Source: Jiangella gansuensis DSM 44835 (GTDB taxonomy: Bacteria > Actinomycetota > Actinomycetes > Jiangellales > Jiangellaceae). Taken from it: DNA of 64,000 nucleotides. Below, piece by piece: positions 2,020 through 43,184 of this stretch; within the stretch, counting starts at the first letter, position 1; the number at the start of each line of letters is the position of its first letter. Position numbers and translations under genes: made by a program. Location of the stretch: assembly GCF_000515395.1 (NCBI RefSeq), contig NZ_KI911782.1:3532606-3596605 (forward strand), written 5' to 3'. The notes beneath the pieces were generated by a model that saw only the letters and a list, made by a program, of their open reading frames with translations, did not search any database and had not been told where the DNA came from.

Positions 2020-4833
2020 AGGGGAACGGGTGAGCAACTGGGCCAGATGCACGCCGCCGCGGCCGGCCAGGTCCTCGGCCTGAGTGCGGCACGAGAACCC
2101 GTCGGCCAGCAGGACCGCACCGTCGGGGGCCGAGCGCAGCGCCGGCAGCAGCCCGTTCTCGGCGACCGCGACGGAGACGTCGTAGTGGCCGGCGGTCATC
2201 CCGAAATCGCCGGCCAGGCCGCAGCAGCCGGCGACCGCGGTGACCTCGGCGCCGGCGCGCCGCAGCACCCGCAGGTCGGCGTCGTAGCCGGCGGTGGCGT
2301 GCTGGTGGCAGTGCGGCTGGGCGACGACGGCGACACCGCTGAGGTCCGGCGGCGTCCAGGGCGCAGGGCCGGCCGAGGCCGCGTCCAGCACCTCGGCCAG
2401 GGTGCGGGTCGCGGCTTCGACGGCGCGCGCCCGCGGGTCGTCGCCGAGCAGCTCGATCAGGTCGCTGCGCAGCACGGCTGTGCAGGACGGCTCGAGCCCG
2501 ACGATCGGCGTGCCGGCGGCCGCGTGCGGCGCGAACGCGTCGAGCAGCCGGCGCAGCTTGGCCTTGGCCTGGTCGAGCTGGCCGGTGCTGATCCACGTCA
2601 GGCCGCAGCACACATCTCCCGCGGAGACGGTCACGGTGTAGCCGGCGTCGGTGAGCAGGCGCATGGCCGCGCGGGCGGCGTCGGGCGTGAAGGCGTCGCT
2701 GAACGAGTCGACCCACAGCAGCACCGGCCCGCGGTCACCGTCGCCGGCCGGCACCGCCGCGCGCCGTCGCCGCCACCACCGCCGGAACGGCTGGGCGGCG
2801 AACCGGGGCACGGCCCGACGCGGGTCCATGCCGCCCAGCCGCAGCAGTACCCGCCGCAGCGGACGGATCGCCAGCACCGCGTTGACCAGGCGCGGCGCCA
2901 GCCCGGCCAGCCGCGCCCACTGGGGTAGCCGGCCCAGCAGGTAGTGCGGCAGCGGCCGCAGCCGGCCGCGGTAGGTGCGGTAGAGCACCTCGGCCTTGTA
3001 CGCCGCCATGTCGATGCCGGTCGGGCAGTCCGACCGGCAGGCCTTGCACGACAGGCACAGGTCCAAAGACTCGTGTACCTCGGCCGAGCCCCACCCGTCG
3101 TGCACCAGCGAGCCGTTCGCCAGTTCCTGCAGCACCCGGGCACGGCCGCGGGTGGAGTCCTTCTCGTCCTGCGTGGCCAGATACGACGGGCACATGACGC
3201 CGCCGGACGACGACAGGTCGGCGCGGCACTTGCCCACGCCGACGCAGCGGTGCACGGCGGTGGTGAGGTCACCGGAGTCGGCGGCGAACCGGAACCCGCC
3301 GGCGGCCGGGAGCGGCCGGGCGGCCGGCCGGCGCAGGTCGGTGTCCACGGCCGCCGGCCGGACGACGACGCCCGGATTGAGCACGTCGGCGGGGTCGAAC
3401 AGGCCCTTGAACCGCTCGAACAGGCCGATGGCGGCGGGGGAGTACATGTGGGGGAGCAGTTCGCCGCGGGCACGGCCGTCGCCGTGCTCCCCGGACAGCG
3501 AGCCGCCGTGCGATGCGACCAGCATCGCGGCGTCGACGAGGAACGGGCGCAGCCGCTGCGGCGCGTCGGCCAGCGGCAGGTCGAGCCGGACATGCACGCA
3601 GCCGTCGCCGAAGTGCCCGTACAGCAGGCCGTCGATGCCGTGTTCGGCCAGCAGGGCGTCGAAGCCGCGCAGGTAGGCGCCGAGCCGTTCCGGTGGGACC
3701 GCGGCGTCCTCCCAGCCGGGCCAGGCTTGCTCACCGGAGGCGGTGCGCCCGGCCAGCCCGGCGCCGTCCTCGCGGATGCGCCACAGCGCGGCCGCGTCCG
3801 GGCCGGCTTCGAGGACCTCGCTGTCGACGGCGTCGGCATCGGCGACCAGGGCAGCCGCCGCGGCCCGTGCGCCCGCGGCGTCCTCGCCACCGACCTCCAC
3901 CAGCAGCCAGCCGGCGCCGTCCGGTAGCGGCGGCACCCGGGCCGGGCCGTGGTGCCGGCGTACGACGTCGACGAGCCGCGCGTCCAGGCCCTCGACGGCC
4001 AGCGGCTGGTGCGTGAGCAGCGCCGGTGCGGCATCGGCGGCGGTCGCCATGTCGGGGTAGCCGAGCACGACGAGTGCGCGGGCCGGTGCGACCGGCACCA
4101 GCCGCACCCGGGCACCGAGCAGCGTCCCGCAGGTGCCCTCGGTGCCGGTGAGCGCCTTGGCCAGGTCGGCGCCGCGTTCGGGCAGCAGGTGCTCGAGCGA
4201 GTAGCCGGACATCTGACGGCCGAACCGGCCCAGTTCGGTGCGGATGACCGCCAGCTCGGAGTTCACCAGGCCGGCCAGCCCGGGCACGGGGTCCAGGCCG
4301 AGCCCGGCGGTGAAGCGCCGGCCGGTGCCGTCGAGCCAGTCGAGTTCGACGACGTTGTCGGCGGTCGTTCCGTACGCGACGGCGTGCGGGCCGCAGGCGT
4401 TGTTGCCGATCATGCCGCCGATGGTGCAGCGGGCGTGGGTGGAGGGGTCGGGGCCGAAACGCAGCCCGTATGGCGCAGACTGCGCCTGCAGCGACGCGAG
4501 CACCACGCCCGGCTCGACCAGGGCCGTGCCCGACTCCGGGTCGATCTCGAGCACGCGGTTCAGGTGCCGGGAGAAATCGACGACGACGCCCGGCCCGACC
4601 GCGTTGCCGGCCACGGAGGTGCCGCCGCCGCGCGCGGTCAACGCCACGCCGGCGGACCGGGCCACCTCCGCCACCGCGAGGACGTCGTCGACGTGCCGGG
4701 GGAACACCACCACGCGGGGCACGACGCGGTAGTTCGACGCGTCCGACGAGTACTCCGCGCGGCGGCGGCTGGACGCGTCGACGCCGCCCGGCGCAGCGGT
4801 CGCCAGAAGTCGAGTGAGTTCGTCAGCCGTCAT
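2017..4833 (-). CDS. FAD-binding and (Fe-S)-binding D-2-hydroxyacid (D-lactate/glycolate) oxidoreductase
   Basis: This 938-residue protein fuses a GlcD-like FAD domain to a GlcF-like Fe-S domain, a known D-lactate/2-hydroxyacid dehydrogenase architecture of about 950-1000 residues. The FAD-binding PCMH motif ARGGGTSVAGNAVGPG lies near residue 70. Two iron-sulfur clusters follow: CVGVGKC with a later Cys near 525-550, and CLSCKACRSDCP near 595. CCG-type motifs (VCCGLTW near 741, GCCGLAGDFG near 869) close the protein. It probably passes electrons from a 2-hydroxyacid to the respiratory chain. Its start lies in a 160-bp divergent region that also holds the first IclR-type operator, so it may belong to the same regulon. 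In the inferred pathway it would oxidise a hydroxyacid end product. Confidence 0.85.
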   Translation of the reverse strand: MTADELTRLLATAAPGGVDASSRRRAEYSSDASNYRVVPRVVVFPRHVDDVLAVAEVARSAGVALTARGGGTSVAGNAVGPGVVVDFSRHLNRVLEIDPESGTALVEPGVVLASLQAQSAPYGLRFGPDPSTHARCTIGGMIGNNACGPHAVAYGTTADNVVELDWLDGTGRRFTAGLGLDPVPGLAGLVNSELAVIRTELGRFGRQMSGYSLEHLLPERGADLAKALTGTEGTCGTLLGARVRLVPVAPARALVVLGYPDMATAADAAPALLTHQPLAVEGLDARLVDVVRRHHGPARVPPLPDGAGWLLVEVGGEDAAGARAAAAALVADADAVDSEVLEAGPDAAALWRIREDGAGLAGRTASGEQAWPGWEDAAVPPERLGAYLRGFDALLAEHGIDGLLYGHFGDGCVHVRLDLPLADAPQRLRPFLVDAAMLVASHGGSLSGEHGDGRARGELLPHMYSPAAIGLFERFKGLFDPADVLNPGVVVRPAAVDTDLRRPAARPLPAAGGFRFAADSGDLTTAVHRCVGVGKCRADLSSSGGVMCPSYLATQDEKDSTRGRARVLQELANGSLVHDGWGSAEVHESLDLCLSCKACRSDCPTGIDMAAYKAEVLYRTYRGRLRPLPHYLLGRLPQWARLAGLAPRLVNAVLAIRPLRRVLLRLGGMDPRRAVPRFAAQPFRRWWRRRRAAVPAGDGDRGPVLLWVDSFSDAFTPDAARAAMRLLTDAGYTVTVSAGDVCCGLTWISTGQLDQAKAKLRRLLDAFAPHAAAGTPIVGLEPSCTAVLRSDLIELLGDDPRARAVEAATRTLAEVLDAASAGPAPWTPPDLSGVAVVAQPHCHQHATAGYDADLRVLRRAGAEVTAVAGCCGLAGDFGMTAGHYDVSVAVAENGLLPALRSAPDGAVLLADGFSCRTQAEDLAGRGGVHLAQLLTRSP

Positions 4834-4894
4834 GCGCGCTGGCTTCCGTGTCGATGTGCACGTCTTGAAGCTACAGAAAGCACTGGGAAGGCTC

Positions 4895-4927
4895 TTGACA
4901 TGGAATGAAGTTCCATGAGTCTATCAT
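4895..4927 (+). promoter_or_regulatory. Promoter with IclR-type operator, site 1
   Basis: The palindrome CATGGAATGAAGTTCCATG (4899-4917) has perfect 7-bp arms around TGAAG. It overlaps the end of a consensus -35 TTGACA (4895-4900) and fills the spacer before a weak -10 (GTCTAT 4919-4924 or TATCAT 4922-4927). A protein bound here would block RNA polymerase for the rightward gene and perhaps for the divergent oxidase. The core TGGAA-N5-TTCCA matches the known IclR-type operator form. Confidence 0.75.
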
Positions 4928-4993
4928 CGCAGACTCTGCGGAATCGGGCGCGCTGCCGCCCCGTTTCGCTCCACTCCAGCCAAGGAGGCGTCC

Positions 4994-7108
4994 ATGGGTA
5001 GTGCCAAGTTCTCCCGGCGAACGGGGCTGATCGGAGCGGCCGCGGGCGGGCTCTCCTTGACGGGCGGAGGAATCCTCGGTTCGGCATCTGCAACCGAGGT
5101 TCATTGGACTGACGACCTGGACGAGCTCACGCTCTTCGCCTTCGACCAGGTGTCGATCCCATCCGTGCAGAACCTCAAGCTTGAGATGCGCAACCCGGTC
5201 AAGCACCCGGACAACCCGGTGGTTCCGCGCGGCGAGGCCGGCAGCGTGGATTCCTGGGCGGTCCAGTTCTACGGCTCGGTCATCAAGGTCGGCGACAAGT
5301 ACCGCATGTGGTATTGCGCGGTCAGCGCGGAGGAGCGCGAGGAGCACACCGGTAGCAGCACGTCCGCGCTGTGGCGAGTCGCCTACGCGGAGAGCACTGA
5401 CGGCGTCAACTGGGTGAAGCCGAACCTCGGCCTGGTGGAGTTCCGTGGCAGCAAGAACAACAATCTCGTGCTCATGGACCCGCCGATCGGCGTGCTGAAC
5501 GTCAAGGTCTTGCACGAGCCGGACGACCACCCCAGCCGGCGGTACAAGATGGGCTGCCACGTCTACTGGGACAACCGCGGCAACCGGCACGGCACGCTGG
5601 CTGTGTACGGCAGCCCCGACGGGCTGAACTGGACGTCGCTCACCGACATCGAGCCGATCAACGGTGAAATGGCGGTTGACGACTTGCTGATCCCGGCCCT
5701 GCATGCCGAGCCTGTCGGCGGCCTGTACAAGTGGAAGGGCACTTACCACTCCACCGGCCAGAACGGCAACCCCGCGGTGCGTCCGATCCACGGACGGGTC
5801 GGCCGGACGTGGGAGTCGGGTGACTTCGAGCAGTGGCAGCAGACCAGCACAATGACTTGGGTGCGGCATCAGCAGCACACGCTGCTCGGGCCTGGCCGCA
5901 GTCTCGAGGGTGAGCAACAGCACGAGGGCATCAGCGTGTGGAACCGGGGCAATGTCCTGCTCGGCGTGACCGGCCAGTGGCACGGCGACGCGAGCTGGCA
6001 GAACGTCACCATCGACCTCGGTTTCCTGGTCAGCAACGACGGCCTGCACTTCCGGGAGCCCGCAAACGAATGGACCTTCATCCCGCGCGGCCAGGACGGC
6101 ACGCCAGAGGCGACCGTGGCCAACCCGTCGTTCGAGACTCTTGACGACGACGGCTGGCCGGTGTCGTGGACCCTCGATGCCAACCGGGCGCAGACCGCGG
6201 CGGCCAGCACCGAGCGCGCCCGGACCGGCACCACCAGCTTGCGAGTCGAGAACGTCGTCGGCACATCGGTCGGCGTGCGGACGCCCAAACTGCCGGCCGA
6301 GGAAGGCGTGGAGTACACGGCTAAGGTCTGGACGTTCACCGACAGCGGTACGCCAGCCCAGCTCTTCATGGAGTTCTTCGACGCATCCGGCAGGCGGTTG
6401 GCGAACCATTTCGTCCAGCCCGAAGCCTCGGACGACTGGCAAGAAGTGACCTTCGCCGCGACGGCGCCGGCTGGCACCGCGACTCTCAACGTGATGCTGT
6501 ACGGCGCCACGGGGGCCGCGGGTGTCTCCTTCCACGACGACGTCAGCCTCAGCTGGCCCGGCTCGGGTGATGGCGTCGCCGAGTGGGACCGCGGCGGCCT
6601 CCTCCAGGGTCAGGGATTCGAGAACGTCGGCGACCAGACGCTCGTCTACTACGGCGCCTGGGACCCGCGCGTGAATATTCCCGGGGTCCCGCTGCCGCCA
6701 CGGGGTGGCGTGGGCATCGCGGTGCTGCCGAAGGACCGGTTCGGCGACCTGACGGTCGACCTGCGGGCCGAGGGCGACGGCGCGTACCAGATCCCCGAGG
6801 TGACCAGCGAGTTCGTCACTGCGAGCGTCGTGCTGGGTCGGCGACACCGGTCGCCGAAGTTCTTCGTCAACGCCGAGGGTCTGGGCGCTCAGGCGAAGCT
6901 GCGGTTCGAGCTGCTTGAACACGACTACACGCCGATCCCCGGCTACTCGGGGGACAACGCGGCGGTTGTCGACATCGACGGCTTCCGGACGCCCATCGCG
7001 TGGGCCCGTAGCCGCGGGCGTCGACTGCCCGAGAAGATCAGGATCCGCGGCTACTTCGACGGTGAGCAGAACACCGACATCAAACTGAGCGCCATCTACA
7101 TCGCCTGA
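4994..7108 (+). CDS. Tat-exported five-bladed propeller protein (arabinanase/levansucrase/invertase superfamily) with inserted binding module
   Basis: The 704-residue product has a Tat signal (FSRRTGLIGAA) and a good ribosome site (AAGGAGG at 4982-4988). Residues from about 45 to 375 carry repeats typical of the GH32/43-like five-bladed propeller: KYRMWYCAV, RVAYAESTDGVNW, YGSPDGLNW. At about residues 376-520 a jelly-roll-like carbohydrate-binding module (NPSFETL to FHDDVSL) is inserted. The propeller then resumes (LLQGQGFENVGDQTLVYYGA), so the module sits inside the fold. I cannot assign the catalytic acids, so glycosidase activity is inferred from the family. It is the first gene downstream of operator 1. 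The next gene is a paralogue, and a hairpin separates the two. Confidence 0.8.
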   Translation: MGSAKFSRRTGLIGAAAGGLSLTGGGILGSASATEVHWTDDLDELTLFAFDQVSIPSVQNLKLEMRNPVKHPDNPVVPRGEAGSVDSWAVQFYGSVIKVGDKYRMWYCAVSAEEREEHTGSSTSALWRVAYAESTDGVNWVKPNLGLVEFRGSKNNNLVLMDPPIGVLNVKVLHEPDDHPSRRYKMGCHVYWDNRGNRHGTLAVYGSPDGLNWTSLTDIEPINGEMAVDDLLIPALHAEPVGGLYKWKGTYHSTGQNGNPAVRPIHGRVGRTWESGDFEQWQQTSTMTWVRHQQHTLLGPGRSLEGEQQHEGISVWNRGNVLLGVTGQWHGDASWQNVTIDLGFLVSNDGLHFREPANEWTFIPRGQDGTPEATVANPSFETLDDDGWPVSWTLDANRAQTAAASTERARTGTTSLRVENVVGTSVGVRTPKLPAEEGVEYTAKVWTFTDSGTPAQLFMEFFDASGRRLANHFVQPEASDDWQEVTFAATAPAGTATLNVMLYGATGAAGVSFHDDVSLSWPGSGDGVAEWDRGGLLQGQGFENVGDQTLVYYGAWDPRVNIPGVPLPPRGGVGIAVLPKDRFGDLTVDLRAEGDGAYQIPEVTSEFVTASVVLGRRHRSPKFFVNAEGLGAQAKLRFELLEHDYTPIPGYSGDNAAVVDIDGFRTPIAWARSRGRRLPEKIRIRGYFDGEQNTDIKLSAIYIA

Positions 7109-31729: not shown

Positions 31730-32926
31730 CTAAGCCGTGGACAGCGCCGCGGTGGGTGGCATCCGGGCGGCACGGGCGGCGGGGTAGGCGCCCGCCAGCG
31801 CGCCGACGACCATGGTGGCGCCCGCTGCGCCGGCCAGCACCCAGACCGGTAGCGCGAACGGCCAGTCCCGGCTGGTGGCGAACGCGGCGGTGGCGAGTCC
31901 GCCGAGGGCGGCGCCGCCGAGTCCGCCGAACGCGGCCAGCAGGACCGACTCACCGAGGAACTGGCGGCGGATGTGGGCGCGGGTGGCGCCGAGCGCGCGT
32001 CGCAACCCGACTTCGGAGCGGCGTTCGAGGACGGCGATGACCATGGTGTTGGCGACGCCGATGCCACCGACGAGCAGTGCCACCCCGCCGAGGGCGAGGA
32101 GCAGGGTGGTGAGGGTCTCGTCGGTGGCGGCTTGGGCGGCCAGCGCGTCCGACGGGCGGCTGACCGCCACTTCCTCCGGATGCGCCGGGTGCACCGTCGC
32201 CGGCAGGAGCGCCCGGACGTCGTCGATGACGGCTTCGTCGCTGCGTTCGTAGATGGTGGTAGGCGCGCCGTCGAAGCCCAGCAGCCCGGTCGCCACCGGC
32301 CAGCCGATCAGCGCCGCCGAGTCCAGCTCCGGCGCCAGGGCCACCGGGTCGAGGACGCCGACGACGGTGAACCACTCGCCGCCCAGCCACACCTCGACCG
32401 TGCCGTCGGTCCGCGAGATCCCCAGCAGGTCCGCGGCATCCGCCCCCAGCACCACGGCGGGAAAGGCCGCCAGTGCGTCGTCGAGCCACCGGCCCGACGC
32501 GACGGTCGCGCTGACGGTGTCGAGCAGGTCGGTGCGGGCGGCGGTGACGGCCAGCGCGTTCGTCTGGTTCACGTCGATCTGGTCGTTGCGGTACACCGAC
32601 GCCCCCGGGACCGCGCCGACCGCGCTGACCGACGTGACGCCGTCGAGCCGGGCCACCATGTCCACGCTCTCCTCCGGCAACACAGCTTCGCCGGTGAACG
32701 ACGTCCCGGGCGCGACCGTGAGCAGGTTGGTGCCGAGCGACTCGAGCTGCTGGTTGACCTGTTCGCGGCTGCTGGCGGAGATGCCCACGACGGCGACCAT
32801 CGCGGCGATGCCGACCGCGATCCCCAGCGCGGACAGCACCGCGCGCAGGGGGCGGGCGCGCAGGCCGGAGAAGGCGACCCGGGCGGTGTCGCGGGCGCGC
32901 AGCCGGGACGGTGCCGGGGCGCTCAT
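31730..32926 (-). CDS. MacB/FtsX-type ABC transporter permease
   Basis: The 398-residue protein has one N-terminal membrane helix (LSALGIAVGIAAMVAVVGIS), a large extracytoplasmic domain (about residues 55-280) and three C-terminal helices of the FtsX type, with GGIGVANTMVIAVLERRSEV and RRALGATRAHIRRQFLGES between them. It pairs with the ATPase overlapping it by 4 bp. Such MacAB-like complexes export peptides, lipoproteins or antimicrobials, or transmit envelope signals. Confidence 0.88.
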   Translation of the reverse strand: MSAPAPSRLRARDTARVAFSGLRARPLRAVLSALGIAVGIAAMVAVVGISASSREQVNQQLESLGTNLLTVAPGTSFTGEAVLPEESVDMVARLDGVTSVSAVGAVPGASVYRNDQIDVNQTNALAVTAARTDLLDTVSATVASGRWLDDALAAFPAVVLGADAADLLGISRTDGTVEVWLGGEWFTVVGVLDPVALAPELDSAALIGWPVATGLLGFDGAPTTIYERSDEAVIDDVRALLPATVHPAHPEEVAVSRPSDALAAQAATDETLTTLLLALGGVALLVGGIGVANTMVIAVLERRSEVGLRRALGATRAHIRRQFLGESVLLAAFGGLGGAALGGLATAAFATSRDWPFALPVWVLAGAAGATMVVGALAGAYPAARAARMPPTAALSTA

Positions 32927-33624
32927 CGGTGCTCCAGCTTCTCGTCGGACTCGATCCGCCCGTCCAGGATGTGCACCTGGCGGGGCAGCTCGGCGGCGAC
33001 GCCGTGGTCGTGGGTGATGACGATGACGGTGGTGCCGGCGTCGTGCAGCTCGTGCAGCAGTTTGAGCACGGCCGCGCCGGACGCGGAGTCCAGCGCGCCG
33101 GTGGGTTCGTCGGCCAGCAGGAACGACGGCTTCCCCACGAGGGCACGGGCGACGGCGACACGTTGGCGCTGTCCGCCGGAGAGCTCGTTCGGCTTGTGGT
33201 GGACGCGTTCGGCGAGGCCGACGCGTTCCAGGGTGGCGCGCGCCCGGCGGCGCCGCTCGCGGAGAGGTGCGCCGGTGTAGAGGAGCCCGTCGGCGACGTT
33301 GTCGAGTGCCGTCACACCGGGGGAGAGAAAGAACTGCTGGAACACGAATCCGATGCGGCGGGCCCGCAGCGCCGAGAGCTGCCGGTCGGACAGCGCGCCC
33401 ACGTCGTGCCCGTCGATGTGGACGGTGCCCGCGTCGGCGCGGTCCAGCGTGCCGAGGACGTTGAGCATGGTGCTCTTGCCGGAGCCGGACGGGCCGACGA
33501 TGCTCACCATCTCGCCGGCATCGATCGTCAGGCTGACGCCGTCCAGGGCGCGTACCGGCGGGCGACCTGGGTAGACGCGGCGTACGCCGTCGAGCATGAC
33601 GACGGGCTGGGTCGGGGTGGTCAT
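32923..33624 (-). CDS. MacB/LolD-type ABC transporter ATPase
   Basis: The 233-residue ATPase has Walker A GPSGSGKST, Q-loop FVFQQFFLSPGVTALDN, signature LSGGQRQR, Walker B LLADEPTGALDS and H-loop ITHDHGVA, all typical of the LolD/MacB subgroup. Both ends overlap its neighbours by 4 bp. Confidence 0.92.
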   Translation of the reverse strand: MTTPTQPVVMLDGVRRVYPGRPPVRALDGVSLTIDAGEMVSIVGPSGSGKSTMLNVLGTLDRADAGTVHIDGHDVGALSDRQLSALRARRIGFVFQQFFLSPGVTALDNVADGLLYTGAPLRERRRRARATLERVGLAERVHHKPNELSGGQRQRVAVARALVGKPSFLLADEPTGALDSASGAAVLKLLHELHDAGTTVIVITHDHGVAAELPRQVHILDGRIESDEKLEHR

Positions 33625-34775
33625 CGTCCGGCCACCCCGACGACCGTTCCCTCGCCGATGCCGTCGCCGGTCACCTCGACCTGGCCGTCCGCGAACAGGC
33701 CGGTCTCCACCGGGACGATCTCGGTGCTGCCGCCGTCACCCACGACTTCCAGCCCATAGCCGCCGCCGGCGACCGCGAGCAGCGCGTTGACCGGTACGAC
33801 CAGCACGTCGGCGCGCTCGTCGACCGGCCGCACCACGTCGACCGGCGAACCGATCAGGCTGGCCTCGGCCGGCTCGGCGAGCGTCACCTCCACCTCGGCG
33901 ACGGCCGCGTCGGCGCCGGTCTCGTCCTCGGAGGCACCACCACCGCTCCCGGCCGCCGCGGTGGCCTGGACCACCGACGACGCCGTAACGGTGCCGGCGA
34001 CCTCGCCACCGCCCGGTAACACCACCGTGACGGCGGTACCGGCGGCCAGGAGGTCGCGGTCAGCTACGTCCACCTCCAGCGTCGCCACCTGGTCGGTGCC
34101 GGTGACATCCAGGACCGGCGCGCCCGGTGCCTGCGTGGCTCCCGCCTCGGCGTGAACGGTGCCGACCCGCCCGCCCTCGGGCAGGAACACCACGTCGGCC
34201 ACGCCCACCGACCCGGTTTCCTCCGCGCCGATGTCCTCCTGCCACTCCCGGACCGCTTCGGCGGTGTACCAGGTGTACTCGTCGTCGGCAGTGAAGCCGT
34301 CGTATCCCAGTGCGGTCAGGTTCGCCTCCAGCTGCTGGACATCGATACCGGTGTCGCCCGCGGCGAGGTCCCGGTACATCGGGATCGCCCCGAGCAGCGC
34401 CGTCACCGGCCGCTCGTCCAGGCGGTACAGCTCGGTGCCGCGGGTGACCTCCATGTCCTGCGCGGCCACCCGGGTGAGCGTCCCCGCCCCGGACGACACG
34501 GTGTGTGCGTCGCCGTGCCCGAGAGTTCCCGCCCAGGTCTCCGTCGCCGCGATGGTGCCGCGCGTCACCTGCGCCGTCGCGGCCGGCGCGGCCGTGCCGT
34601 CCGTCGTGTCGTCGCCGTCCTCCTGCGTCAGGTACCAGACCGCCCCACCGGCGCCCGCGGCGGCGACCAGCCCCAGCGTGAGCCAGAGCAGCCGGGACCG
34701 CCGCCTCGACGGTCGCTCCAGCTCGGCGTCGAGGTCAACGGGTTCCGCGGTCGTGACATGGTCGACGTGGCTCAC
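33621..34775 (-). CDS. Membrane-fusion (periplasmic-adaptor-like) protein with peptidoglycan-binding domain
   Basis: The 384-residue protein has one membrane anchor at about residues 28-47 (LLWLTLGLVAAAGAGGAVWY), an acidic linker, and beta-barrel and lipoyl-like segments. A PG_binding_1-type domain is seen in GDTGIDVQQLEANLTALGYD to AVREWQEDIG. This arrangement is common in Gram-positive MacA-like partners of MacB permeases and would tie the exporter to the wall. The start is a GTG overlapping the lipoprotein stop as GTGA. Confidence 0.82.
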   Translation of the reverse strand: MSHVDHVTTAEPVDLDAELERPSRRRSRLLWLTLGLVAAAGAGGAVWYLTQEDGDDTTDGTAAPAATAQVTRGTIAATETWAGTLGHGDAHTVSSGAGTLTRVAAQDMEVTRGTELYRLDERPVTALLGAIPMYRDLAAGDTGIDVQQLEANLTALGYDGFTADDEYTWYTAEAVREWQEDIGAEETGSVGVADVVFLPEGGRVGTVHAEAGATQAPGAPVLDVTGTDQVATLEVDVADRDLLAAGTAVTVVLPGGGEVAGTVTASSVVQATAAAGSGGGASEDETGADAAVAEVEVTLAEPAEASLIGSPVDVVRPVDERADVLVVPVNALLAVAGGGYGLEVVGDGGSTEIVPVETGLFADGQVEVTGDGIGEGTVVGVAGR

Positions 34776-35299
34776 TGGCCACCGCCCGGTCCGAAGCGCA
34801 CCGGGGCGCCGGCCAGCAGCGACTGGCAGGCGCCGATCGCGGCCTGGAACTCGGCGGAGTTCGGGTCGAGCCCGGTCGGCATCGACAGCGAACCGTCCGC
34901 GGCCGGGTCGGGCATGTCCACGCCGTTCTCGCGCATGCAGGTCGTGAACGCACGAAGCGCTTCCAAAGCGTCCGCGTCCGGGTCCGACGCCTCGCCGCCG
35001 TCGGGCAGCAGCGACCGGCACTCCTCCATGGCCTCCGCGGCGCCCGGGTCGTCGGGAAGCTCGAGCTGGATGCCCTGCTGGCTCGGATCCGGGTCGGGCA
35101 TGTCGATGCCGTTGTCCCGCATGCACTCGTAGAACGCGAGCTCGCCGTCCGCGGCACTGTTGCCGTCGCCGTCCCCGGTACCGGACGCCGCGCCGTCGTC
35201 GTCGGACCCGCACGCCGTGAGCGAGACCGTCAGCAACAGGGCGAGTACGGGCAGCAGCCGGCCGCGGAGTGCCGTCCGGCCAGTGGTGAAGCGTGTCAT
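34772..35299 (-). CDS. Lipoprotein with duplicated CMRxNGxDMPDP motif
   Basis: The 175-residue lipoprotein has a lipobox (SLTAC, Cys30). It contains two copies of a short unit: AFYECMRDNGIDMPDPDPSQ and FTTCMRENGVDMPDPAADG, each followed 30-40 residues later by another Cys (ECRSLL, ACQSLL). The spaced cysteines suggest two disulfides, one per repeat. Its role is unknown, but placement first in the MacAB-like operon suggests an extracytoplasmic sensor or partner. GGAGG precedes the ATG. Confidence 0.78.
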   Translation of the reverse strand: MTRFTTGRTALRGRLLPVLALLLTVSLTACGSDDDGAASGTGDGDGNSAADGELAFYECMRDNGIDMPDPDPSQQGIQLELPDDPGAAEAMEECRSLLPDGGEASDPDADALEALRAFTTCMRENGVDMPDPAADGSLSMPTGLDPNSAEFQAAIGACQSLLAGAPVRFGPGGGQ

Positions 35300-35384
35300 G
35301 TCGTCCTCCGGGACGTGGTCGATGCCGTCTGTGCGGTGCGATCGCCACGCTCCTGTGCCCGGATGAGACGTCTTTAGGGCCGGA

Positions 35385-36800
35385 CTAAGAGCCGGCTGAG
35401 AAATCGTCCGGCGGCCGGAGCGGGAACCGTAGGGTCAGCACCGCGCCCCCGCCCGCCCGGTTCGCCGCGGTGGCCGTCCCACCGTGCTGCTCGGCCGCCT
35501 GCGCCACGATGGCCAGGCCCAGACCCGAGCCCTGTCGTTCGCGGGCGCCCTCACCGCGGTAGAAGCGGTCGAACAGCCGTGGCAGGTCGTCGTCGCGGAT
35601 ACCCGGCCCGCGATCGAGCACCCGGACCGTCGCCCACCCGTCGGCCGCTGCGAGCTGCACCTGGACCCGGCCGCCGTCGGGGCTCACCTGAACCGCGTTG
35701 CGGACCAGGTTCGCAATCGCGCGCTCCAGGGTCGCCGGGCGCACGGCCGCCTCGACCGGCCCGCCGCGGATCTCGACGGCGACGGTCGGGTTCACGCGCC
35801 GGGTCCGCGCCACCGCGCGGGCCGCCACCTCGCCGAGGTCGACGTCGAGGCAGGGCTCGTCCTCGCTGCCGCCACGGGCGAGGTCGACGATCTCCGCGAC
35901 CATCTCCGACAGCGCCGCGGCCTCGGACTCCAGGTCGCGCAGCAGGTCGGCGCGGTCGGAGGTGGCGAGGGTCCGCTCGGGGTGCTGCTCGGCCCGCAAC
36001 AGCACGCCGAGGTCGTTGCGCAGCGTGGCCAGCGGCGTTCGCAACTCGTGTCCGGCGTCCTCGACCAGCTGCCGCTGGCGGGTCCGGGCGCTGTCCAGGG
36101 CCGCCAGCATCGCATTGACCGAGCCGGCGAGCCGGACGACCTCGTCCCGGTCGCTGCCCTTGACCTCGATGCGATGCGCGAGGTCCTTGGTCGTGGCCAC
36201 CTGCTCCGCGGCCTCGACCAGTCTGTCCACGCGGCGCAGACCCGCCCGGGCGATCACCCAGCCGAGGGCGCCGGCGACGGCCACGCCCACGCCGGCGATG
36301 GCGATGAGCAGCCAGACGATGCGCGTCATCGTCGCTTCCACGCCGTCGAGGGGTTGGACCAGGCGCAGTACGCCGCCGTTGTCGATCAGGGCGCTCATCA
36401 CGCGGTAGTTGGCGCCGTCGATGGTCTCGGTGCGCAGGTGCGGGCTCTCGGTGTCACCATCGAGCAGTGCCTGCTCGGCGGTGTCGAGGACGAATGCGTC
36501 GACGTCCGCTCCGGGCGGGACGAGCTCCTTCACGATGCCGTCGGGATCGACCACCTGGACGCCGAGTGGTTCGTTCGCGATGACCAGCCCCGCCCGTTCG
36601 CCGTCGGCGGAGGTGCCTGCGGCGACGTCCTGCGACATGCTGGCCAGTCGGTCGATGTCGGGGAGCCGGTCGAGCAGCCGGTCGTCGATCTCGGCCAGCA
36701 GGCTGGAGCGGATCAGCAGCCACGCGGCGACCGACGCCGCGAGGACGGCCAGGGCCATCGCGCCCGACGTCAGCATGGCCAGGCGGGCTCGCAGTGTCAT
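35385..36800 (-). CDS. Sensor histidine kinase (two-component system)
   Basis: The 471-residue kinase has a first membrane helix near residues 10-30, an extracytoplasmic sensor of about 120 residues, a second helix near 150-172 and a HAMP linker. The phospho-acceptor His lies in [14 protein letters not shown] (about residue 250). The ATPase motifs are [11 protein letters not shown] (N box), [21 protein letters not shown] (G1/F boxes) and GSGLGLAIV (G2). It overlaps the response-regulator gene as ATGA. Confidence 0.92.
35386..35401 (-). promoter_or_regulatory. Candidate response-regulator site B
   Basis: On the minus strand TCTCAGCCGGCTCTTA is an 11-bp-period direct repeat (TCTCA/TCTTA), as expected for OmpR/PhoB-type regulators. 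It overlaps the end of the kinase gene, 87 bp before the lipoprotein start, and nearly matches site A at 37508-37523. Confidence 0.5.
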
Positions 36801-37489
36801 GGCGGCGGGTCCGCGGCGCGGACGGTGTAGCCGACCCCGCGGACCGTGTGCAGCATTCGCGGCTCGCCGCCGGCCTCCAGCTTCTTGCGCAGGTACCCGA
36901 TGTAGACGTCGAGCGAGTTCGTCGAGCCGTCCAGGTCGCAGCCCCACACACCCTCGTAGAGCTGGGTTCGGGTGAGCACCTGACGGGGATGCCGCATCAG
37001 GAGCTCGAGCAGACCGAACTCGGTGCGGGTGAGCGTGATCTCCCGGTCCCCGCGGGAGACCTGCCAGGCACCTGGGTCGAGCCGAAGGTCGCCGACGACC
37101 AACGGCGGCTGGCCCGGGGTGGTGGCGACGCGCCGCAACATCGCCCGCAAGCGGGCCAGGAGCTCCTCGTGCGCGAAAGGCTTGACCAGGTAGTCGTCGG
37201 CGCCCGCATCCAGGCCGAGGACCCGGTCGCGGACCGCGTCGCGCGCGGTGAGCATCAAGACGGGGGTGAGGTCACCGTCCCGCCGCAGTCGCCGGCACAC
37301 CTCGATGCCGTTGAGACGCGGCATGACGACATCCACCACGAGGACGTCCGGGCGGACGTCGGGCACCCGGATCAGCGCCTCGACGCCATCGGCCGCGGTC
37401 GTCACGGCGTAGCCCTCGAAGCGCAACGACCGCGCCAGGGATTCCCGAAGTACTGGTTCGTCGTCCACGACAAGGACCCGCACGTGCAT
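36797..37489 (-). CDS. OmpR-family response regulator
   Basis: The 230-residue protein has a receiver domain with the acidic pair VVDDEP (residues 8-12), phospho-acceptor Asp53 in [13 protein letters not shown] and Lys in [14 protein letters not shown]-terminal winged helix follows ([20 protein letters not shown] to [20 protein letters not shown]). It resembles the MprA/CseB type paired with envelope-stress kinases. The start at 37489 is the first ATG giving a normal receiver; longer frames run through site A. Confidence 0.92.
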
Positions 37490-37507
37490 CAGTGTGGACG
37501 GGCTCCT

Positions 37508-37523
37508 TAAGAGCAGCCTGAGA
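37508..37523 (-). promoter_or_regulatory. Candidate response-regulator site A
   Basis: On the minus strand TCTCAGGCTGCTCTTA, an 11-bp-period direct repeat, lies 18 bp before the response-regulator start. It shares 13 of 16 bases with site B, which suggests autoregulation and control of the exporter operon. Confidence 0.5.
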
Positions 37524-37915: not shown

Positions 37916-38171
37916 TAAACCATCGCCTCACGGCGAGTTTCGAAAGAAACTCAAGCGAGTGCGTCCGATTTTTGAGAACTCAACAGTGTGTTTTTGATGG
38001 TTGTTTGTTGACGCCAATTTAGTTTGTGTCCTCGTGCCTGCCCTGTTTGGGGTGGGTTTGGGGTTCCTTTGATGATGCGGCAGCCCTTGTTTGGGGTTGT
38101 TGTTATTGTTGGGGTTGTTCTTTTCATTGGTTTGGTAGCTCTGGCCTTTTGGGGTTGGGGTTGTCATATGT
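37916..38171 (+). other. rRNA leader
   Basis: The leader has a boxB-like hairpin (37935-37952, 7-bp stem, GAAA loop). It also has the conserved actinobacterial element TTTGAGAACTCAACAGTGTG near 37972, a boxA/processing region related to the element before the 23S gene. The rest is T- and G-rich and non-coding. Confidence 0.6.

Positions 38172-43184
<5,013 letters not shown>

Follow-up and report, generated by a model that had tools for sequence, protein, structure and literature searches.

We found that in Jiangella gansuensis DSM 44835 the genes of an OmpR-family two-component system and the adjoining genes of a lipoprotein and a MacAB-like exporter are each preceded by direct repeats with an 11-bp period that end at a fixed distance from a -10-like element, and it is quite likely that the phosphorylated local regulator binds and activates both promoters. 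The locus was studied in a 64,000-nt stretch of contig NZ_KI911782.1 (hereafter the window, to which all coordinates refer unless a locus is named). A preliminary description of the window had proposed autoregulation plus control of the exporter by an OmpR/PhoB-type regulator at these repeats. At the sequence level this proposal is strongly supported by repeats and -10 spacing that are invariant in 12/12 Jiangella genomes, by the same layout at a paralogous operon, and by an operator profile whose matches are restricted to the family. Absent from the earlier reading were the four half-sites at the exporter promoter, the probable leaderless nature of the regulator mRNA, the MprA-like character of the regulator and the presence of the operator at other promoters.

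The genes are arranged on the minus strand in the order regulator, kinase, lipoprotein, adaptor, ATPase and permease. The response regulator (36797–37489, PF00072 and PF00486) appears MprA-like in our family tree; its conserved start is a GTG at 37483, the ATG at 37489 being unique to this genome among the 12. The adjoining kinase gene (35385–36800), whose chosen start overlaps the regulator stop, encodes HAMP, HisKA and HATPase_c domains, so that the pair shows the receiver, winged-helix Trans_reg_C and HisKA/HATPase composition expected of the OmpR/PhoB family. It is followed by the gene of a lipoprotein (34772–35299) with an LTAC lipobox and two CMRxNGxDMPDP repeats, for which no Pfam or NCBIfam match was found. 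The next gene (33621–34775), with a chosen start overlapping the lipoprotein stop, encodes a MacA-like membrane fusion protein with a peptidoglycan-binding domain (PF01471) and a weak, below cut-off match to RND_mfp. The ATPase (32923–33624, PF00005) has its best NCBIfam matches with MacB, LolD and FtsE, all below cut-off, and the permease (31730–32926) combines MacB_PCD (PF12704) and FtsX (PF02687) domains. Taken together, the MacB_PCD/FtsX permease, the MacB-like ATPase and the membrane fusion protein constitute a MacAB-type exporter, with the reservation that no curated MacB cut-off was passed. A single-chain MacB with a fused ATPase is absent from the locus, where 32923–33624 and 31730–32926 form two separate overlapping genes. 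With the chosen starts adjacent genes overlap by a few bases, except for the gap between kinase and lipoprotein, which is the place of the exporter promoter.

This gene order is well conserved: in the ten named Jiangella and Phytoactinopolyspora loci (L040–L049), regulator, kinase, lipoprotein, adaptor and ATPase are consecutive in 10/10 and the permease comes next in 9/10. In J. anatolica (L043), a 375-aa frame on the opposite strand (5963–7090 of that locus) lies directly after the exporter ATPase, in the expected place of the permease; we take it to be transposase-like, and the exporter of this species may be broken at this point. On the other side of the locus, an rRNA operon (38170–41500) starts on the opposite strand at a distance of about 0.7 kb from the regulator; contigs of several draft genomes stop about 1.2–1.6 kb short of the regulator gene, as though interrupted by this same operon.

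The two copies of TCTCAG-N5-TCTTA previously reported, one before the response-regulator gene and another before the lipoprotein/exporter operon, were confirmed as TCTCAGGCTGCTCTTA at 37508–37523 and TCTCAGCCGGCTCTTA at 35386–35401, both on the minus strand. The genome scan proposed in the preliminary description gave a clear result: these are the sole exact copies in 5,585,780 bases, against about 0.2–0.35 expected from composition, and the reversed control pattern has no exact match. The exact motif was detected in 12/12 Jiangella genomes, at 27 places in total compared with about 3–5 expected from composition over their 84 Mb, and the reversed control gave none in every genome. These places comprise 24 belonging to the regulator/exporter pair, two further four-repeat operators in one species (G005: L130, L141) and one other (G006: L150), which is devoid of the surrounding architecture and was set aside as chance. 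Looser searches were less specific. With two mismatches, the window holds 3 places against 3.6 expected, which is uninformative. With one mismatch, the whole genome holds 9 against 4 for the reversed control, so that weaker matches are unreliable alone; the nine include the two sites described here, two at an mprAB-htrA-like paralogue, one hydrolase operator (L033) and four others. One-mismatch places L034, L035, L038 and L039 were set aside for want of a clear architecture. The pattern YCTYA-N6-TCTYA is not enriched and is uninformative by itself, as it occurs at 13 places against 12 for its reversed control.

On the regulator side, the motif scan and the alignment of 12 genomes define site A (37508–37523, minus strand), a direct repeat TCTCAG-N5-TCTTA(A) that corresponds to one predicted dimer site. 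Exactly 10 nt after its second half-site lies CACACT (37491–37496, minus strand), a putative -10 element located 7 nt before the conserved GTG start in this genome. Aligned on the motif, the 12 Jiangella promoters read TCTCAG-N5-TCTTAA-N10-CACACT-N6/7-GTG, and the three hexamers are invariant in 12/12, whereas 0% of the columns are invariant in the 60 nt upstream. Outside the genus, the site is retained with half-site variants in 4/4 loci of the family (L015–L018), together with CACACT. Only 6–7 nt separate CACACT from the start codon, too few for a leader with a ribosome-binding site, and the regulator is therefore probably translated from a leaderless mRNA.

On the exporter side, the previously reported copy turned out to be the distal half of a longer operator. 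Site B (35363–35401, minus strand) consists of four half-sites, TCTCAG, TCTTAG, CCCTAA and TCTCAT, at an exact 11-bp period, i.e., two predicted dimer sites; exactly 10 nt after the fourth half-site lies GAGCGT (35347–35352, minus strand), again a putative -10 element, so that the whole spans 35347–35401. The 12 Jiangella genomes share the form TCTCAG, TCTTAG, (C/G)CCTAA and TCTCAT in 11-bp steps, followed by N10 and, in 12/12, by GA(A/G)CGT. Invariant columns make up 73% of the 44 over the repeats and 3% of the 60 upstream. In the four-repeat pattern score, site B reaches 23/24, against a maximum of 18–20 in each of 20 Markov-simulated windows. Among family members outside the genus, the operator is clear in three loci (L046, L047 and L049) and degenerate in a fourth (L165); the operators of G012 and G015 score 24/30 and 22/30, that of G015 being degenerate. 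Between 35250 and 37800 we found no consensus sigma-70 promoter or terminator, which says little, as shuffled sequences gave almost none either (promoter mean 0.0).

The kinase gene ends inside the exporter operator in 11/12 Jiangella genomes. In J. gansuensis the repeat crosses the last kinase codons, TCT-TAG being the last codon and the stop, and the stop therefore falls in the second half-site; in 10 others it falls in the third half-site and in G005 it lies 36 nt before the operator. Outside the genus, the stop is found in the fourth half-site (L046), in the second (L049), or 94 nt (L047) and 32 nt (L165) before the operator. The reading frame over the operator thus differs between species, which argues that it is the DNA and not the protein that is conserved.

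The positions, conservation and geometry of these repeats and their specificity across the genome are direct observations, as is the layout shared with the mprAB-htrA-like operon; that the local regulator binds the repeats and acts as an activator and not a repressor, where transcription starts and which stimulus is sensed are matters of inference. In the proposed mechanism, the regulator, once phosphorylated by the kinase, would bind YCTYAR half-sites with an 11-bp spacing in the form of head-to-tail dimers. The half-site nearest the -10-like element, ending 10 nt before it, would stand in for a -35 box, and the bound protein would recruit RNA polymerase; the fixed phasing of the half-sites and their fixed spacing to the -10-like element indicate this class II mode of activation by head-to-tail dimers. 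One dimer site would serve the regulator-kinase operon (autoregulation), and two tandem dimer sites, in an operator overlapping the kinase gene end, would serve the lipoprotein-adaptor-ATPase-permease operon. The exporter would be expected to respond more steeply than the regulator, given two tandem sites against one. In some Jiangella species, the same operator would also drive secreted β-lactamase-family hydrolases and S13 D-Ala-D-Ala carboxypeptidases.

A close relative of the regulator was found in the same genome. It is the only other regulator there that matches at E ≤ 1e-60 (48 of 62 candidates scored); it is 64% identical and is followed by a kinase gene and by a gene for an HtrA/PDZ protease, in the regulator-kinase-htrA arrangement known for mprAB. 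A similar regulator-kinase-HtrA-type arrangement is reported for cssRS (PMC3498368). The paralogous operon carries TCTCAG-N5-TCTCA before its regulator and again before htrA, and these sites lie 10 nt before CAGACT or CACCGT, the same layout as at the local sites. Compared with this paralogue and with promoters from the class, the locus has a direct-repeat box at both positions, ahead of the regulator as well as of the downstream envelope gene. Downstream of the local kinase htrA/pepD is absent; the exporter operon occupies that place, and htrA follows the paralogue. We examined 15 MprA-like regulator promoters, 14 from the class and the family plus that of the paralogue (for which htrA linkage was checked), using a score with fixed spacing. 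Ten of the 15 possess the same architecture, with 12–14 of 14 and 0–1 of 500 shuffles as good, and the remaining five have no recognisable repeat.

In the regulator tree, which was midpoint-rooted for drawing only and contains no named MprA sequences, the 15 MprA-like regulators form a supported clade of their own, without the regulator of the window and its orthologues. The latter, a Promicromonospora regulator (L050) and the 15 MprA-like proteins are set apart with full support from the lipoprotein-linked regulators of other families, which form a separate, fully supported group with some members on long branches. The Promicromonospora regulator is 66% identical to that of J. gansuensis; a two-repeat site precedes its own gene, and a site with four repeats lies ahead of the operon of an ABC transporter. 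In this locus (2438–5073), the MprA-like pair and the four-repeat operator are followed by a MacB-type permease, an ATPase and a PDZ fragment similar to the terminal part of HtrA, an arrangement suggestive of exporter genes that were inserted into htrA or took the place of most of it.

The similarity between the two regulators of J. gansuensis raises the question of which one reads the sites. Their recognition regions are nearly identical (a 15-letter stretch against NSLEVYVGYLRRKTE), and given DNA-binding regions so similar the paralogue could share the sites. The sites might then be read mainly by the MprA-like paralogue of the htrA operon, or by both regulators, and the exporter would belong to a shared envelope-stress regulon and not to a private circuit. 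We consider this the strongest competitor, although still unlikely. The two systems have half-sites that are alike except at the fourth position, C or T, and this position is already variable inside the exporter operator; against this, in the second half-site that position is C at both paralogue sites and T at both local sites of this genome, which hints at separated specificities. The parallels with the paralogue, CssRS and C. glutamicum MprA point to the local regulator as the natural ligand. That the bound regulator represses one or both promoters instead of activating them seems quite improbable. A protein bound next to the -10 element could block RNA polymerase, and the C. glutamicum MprAB system is termed predominantly a repressor in a published study (PMC12113857), where, on the other hand, autoregulation by MprA is positive. 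Moreover, NANNNT stands at exactly 10 nt in the operators of all 12 genomes, in L194–L198, L204, L205 and L208, and in the best row of L046, L047, L049, L050 and L165, as would be expected for polymerase contact.

Two further explanations concern the repeats themselves. Half-sites 2 and 3 of the exporter operator form a partial inverted repeat in several species, CTTAG-N7-CTAAG, which could be the core target of a dimeric regulator unrelated to the local one; the resemblance to the regulator promoter would then be coincidental. This is very improbable: the inverted repeat is weakened in the window itself, the hydrolase operator L033 lacks it and retains the direct repeats, and site A and the MprA-type sites contain direct repeats only. 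Finally, the distal half of site B is kinase coding sequence in this genome, so conservation might reflect the C-terminus of the kinase, or the matches might be fortuitous. We rejected both, and regard their probability as negligible, given the reversed control without a match in 12 genomes, the simulations, and repeats that are invariant next to kinase codons that are barely conserved; in addition, the reading frame over the operator in this genome is shifted relative to 10 of the other 11, and the G005 kinase ends before the operator.

To look for further promoters carrying the operator, we trained a profile on sequence alone (R1) with 16 operators, the 12 exporter sites and four others. With 150 candidates scored per genome, it recovered the exporter operator in 12/12 Jiangella genomes with E at most 3.2e-15 and pointed to eight further places with E below 0.001, four of which belong to the training set. 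Of 28 rows, the eight whose E lay in the range 0.08–1 were treated as noise; they include L199 and L203, which score 19/30. Among 246 genomes of the class, 14 match at E ≤ 0.001, all of them Jiangellaceae, and in the two positive family genomes outside the genus the matches lie upstream of the lipoprotein gene. The class-wide scan gave no match in G012 and G015, as its stricter filters miss weak sites.

The additional targets are mostly secreted enzymes of cell-wall type. Operator-led β-lactamase-family hydrolases (PF00144) were detected once in J. gansuensis and three times in G005, and operator-led S13 D-Ala-D-Ala carboxypeptidases (PF02113) in G003, G009 and G010; by eye, both kinds of protein start with twin-arginine-type signals. 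The places outside the training set, L208 and the S13 promoters L196, L197 and L198, all precede enzymes of the penicillin-recognising fold, and they count as two independent cases since the latter three are orthologous. Between L208 and its PF00144 gene there are about 290 nt, which contain a short signal-like ORF. Hydrolase homologues (E at most 1e-70) occur in 5/12 genomes, and in every one of the five an operator leads at least one hydrolase or S13-hydrolase pair. For other hydrolase copies (G005 contigs 51, 54 and 68; G010 near 4.67 Mb), the 1.5 kb scanned contained no operator. In these 1.5-kb scans, operators score 25–28/30 and everything else at most 18. The hydrolase and S13 carboxypeptidase targets suggest a regulon devoted to envelope or cell-wall stress.

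Several of these loci have further features. In J. gansuensis, the operator-led hydrolase gene is followed by that of a protein with a signal, TPR repeats and a domain resembling aspartyl proteases (L229, 7657–8976). In G005 contig 132 (L231, 1147–6065), two PF00144 hydrolases and an S13 carboxypeptidase lie behind one operator, separated from the first gene by a short signal-peptide-like ORF. A four-repeat-like operator (L195, G000:C1 near 3034190) precedes a gene of the SRPBCC (polyketide cyclase/lipid transport) fold, which at E ≤ 1e-20 was found in J. gansuensis only among the 12 Jiangella genomes.

Relatives of the lipoprotein (E ≤ 1e-4) were detected in 65/246 class genomes, 48 of them outside the family. 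We examined the neighbourhoods (1.5-kb flanks) of the best 14 of these 48 outside-family loci (L168–L181). In 13 of these 14, the lipoprotein gene is next to the adaptor gene, and in 12 it is next to a gene for a regulator or kinase. Eleven loci include a regulator within the flanks, which is transcribed in the direction leading away from the lipoprotein gene in 11/11 and is 41–46% identical. Lipoprotein-exporter modules linked to a two-component system are thus a recurrent arrangement among actinobacteria. An MprA-like system in that linked place was found in Jiangellaceae only, among the loci examined, with a looser parallel in Promicromonospora (L050). Across loci L152–L181, the family has two Cys-containing repeats of the CMRxNGxDxPDP type and is located mostly beside MacA/MacB-type genes. 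The lipoprotein was predicted as four helices from 11 sequences (mean pLDDT 68, pTM 0.44), and a PDB fold search with this model returned eight matches, none at E ≤ 0.001. Judged from its gene neighbourhood, the lipoprotein could be an accessory of the sensor or a component of the exporter. Lipoproteins tuning sensors are described in Streptomyces, namely CseA, with AfsQ3 as a proposed one (PMC9739842). By analogy, feedback from the lipoprotein to the sensor, as the preliminary description had imagined, is possible.

A broader scenario, which we offer as speculation and hold to be unlikely in its entirety, is that a duplicated MprAB-type system became in Jiangellaceae a separate circuit for cell-wall damage. 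It would drive the lipoprotein-MacAB exporter through a two-dimer operator at the kinase end, would have repeatedly recruited secreted penicillin-recognising enzymes in individual species, and would use the lipoprotein as an accessory receptor coupling export to the sensor. Neither the mode of binding nor any of the protein types involved is new; the combination in which an MprA-like duplicate controls a MacAB-type exporter and secreted penicillin-recognising enzymes through a four-repeat operator located where the kinase gene ends was not met in the open-licence literature searched. Our results define an operator and a regulon that can be put to experimental test, for a sensor system hitherto uncharacterised, in an actinobacterial family that has received little study. 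They also describe a simple promoter architecture by which many further MprA-like systems of the class can be recognised. Attention is further drawn to a group of actinobacterial lipoproteins with no Pfam or NCBIfam family, whose genes accompany those of MacAB-type exporters and two-component systems.

As for known systems, the 11-bp repeat period and the fixed spacing from repeats to -10 element resemble OmpR-family activation of the PhoB/PhoP type, with the geometry of E. coli pstS as the familiar example. Yet, the half-site is here YCTYAR and the regulator is distantly related, its nearest solved relatives being PrrA and PhoP. The exporter shares with E. coli MacAB(-TolC) and LolCDE an adaptor, a MacB/LolD-type ATPase and a MacB/FtsX-type permease; unlike E. 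coli MacAB, its ATPase and permease are separate, the adaptor has a peptidoglycan-binding domain and a lipoprotein is added. The linkage of a lipoprotein gene to a two-component system, on which the likeness rests, recalls Streptomyces CseA-CseBC and AfsQ3-AfsQ1/Q2 (PMC9739842), but here the lipoprotein belongs to the exporter operon and not to the regulator operon. The closest relatives of the regulator, as judged through the htrA-linked paralogue, would be MprAB of mycobacteria and corynebacteria and CssRS of S. lividans, which are associated with HtrA/PepD. CssRS controls HtrA-like proteases (PMC3498368), and C. glutamicum MprA, besides its positive autoregulation, binds its own, the htrA, sigE, bla and other promoters; the loose 10-bp motif reported for it, TKTTAAGAAM, differs in form from the local repeats (PMC12113857). 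As in MprAB/CssRS, a regulator-kinase operon is followed by an envelope gene, with direct repeats before both. In contrast to them, a lipoprotein-MacAB exporter takes the place of htrA, the second half-site is TCTTA and not TCTCA, four half-sites precede the exporter, and the local system coexists with an mprAB-htrA-like operon in the same genome.
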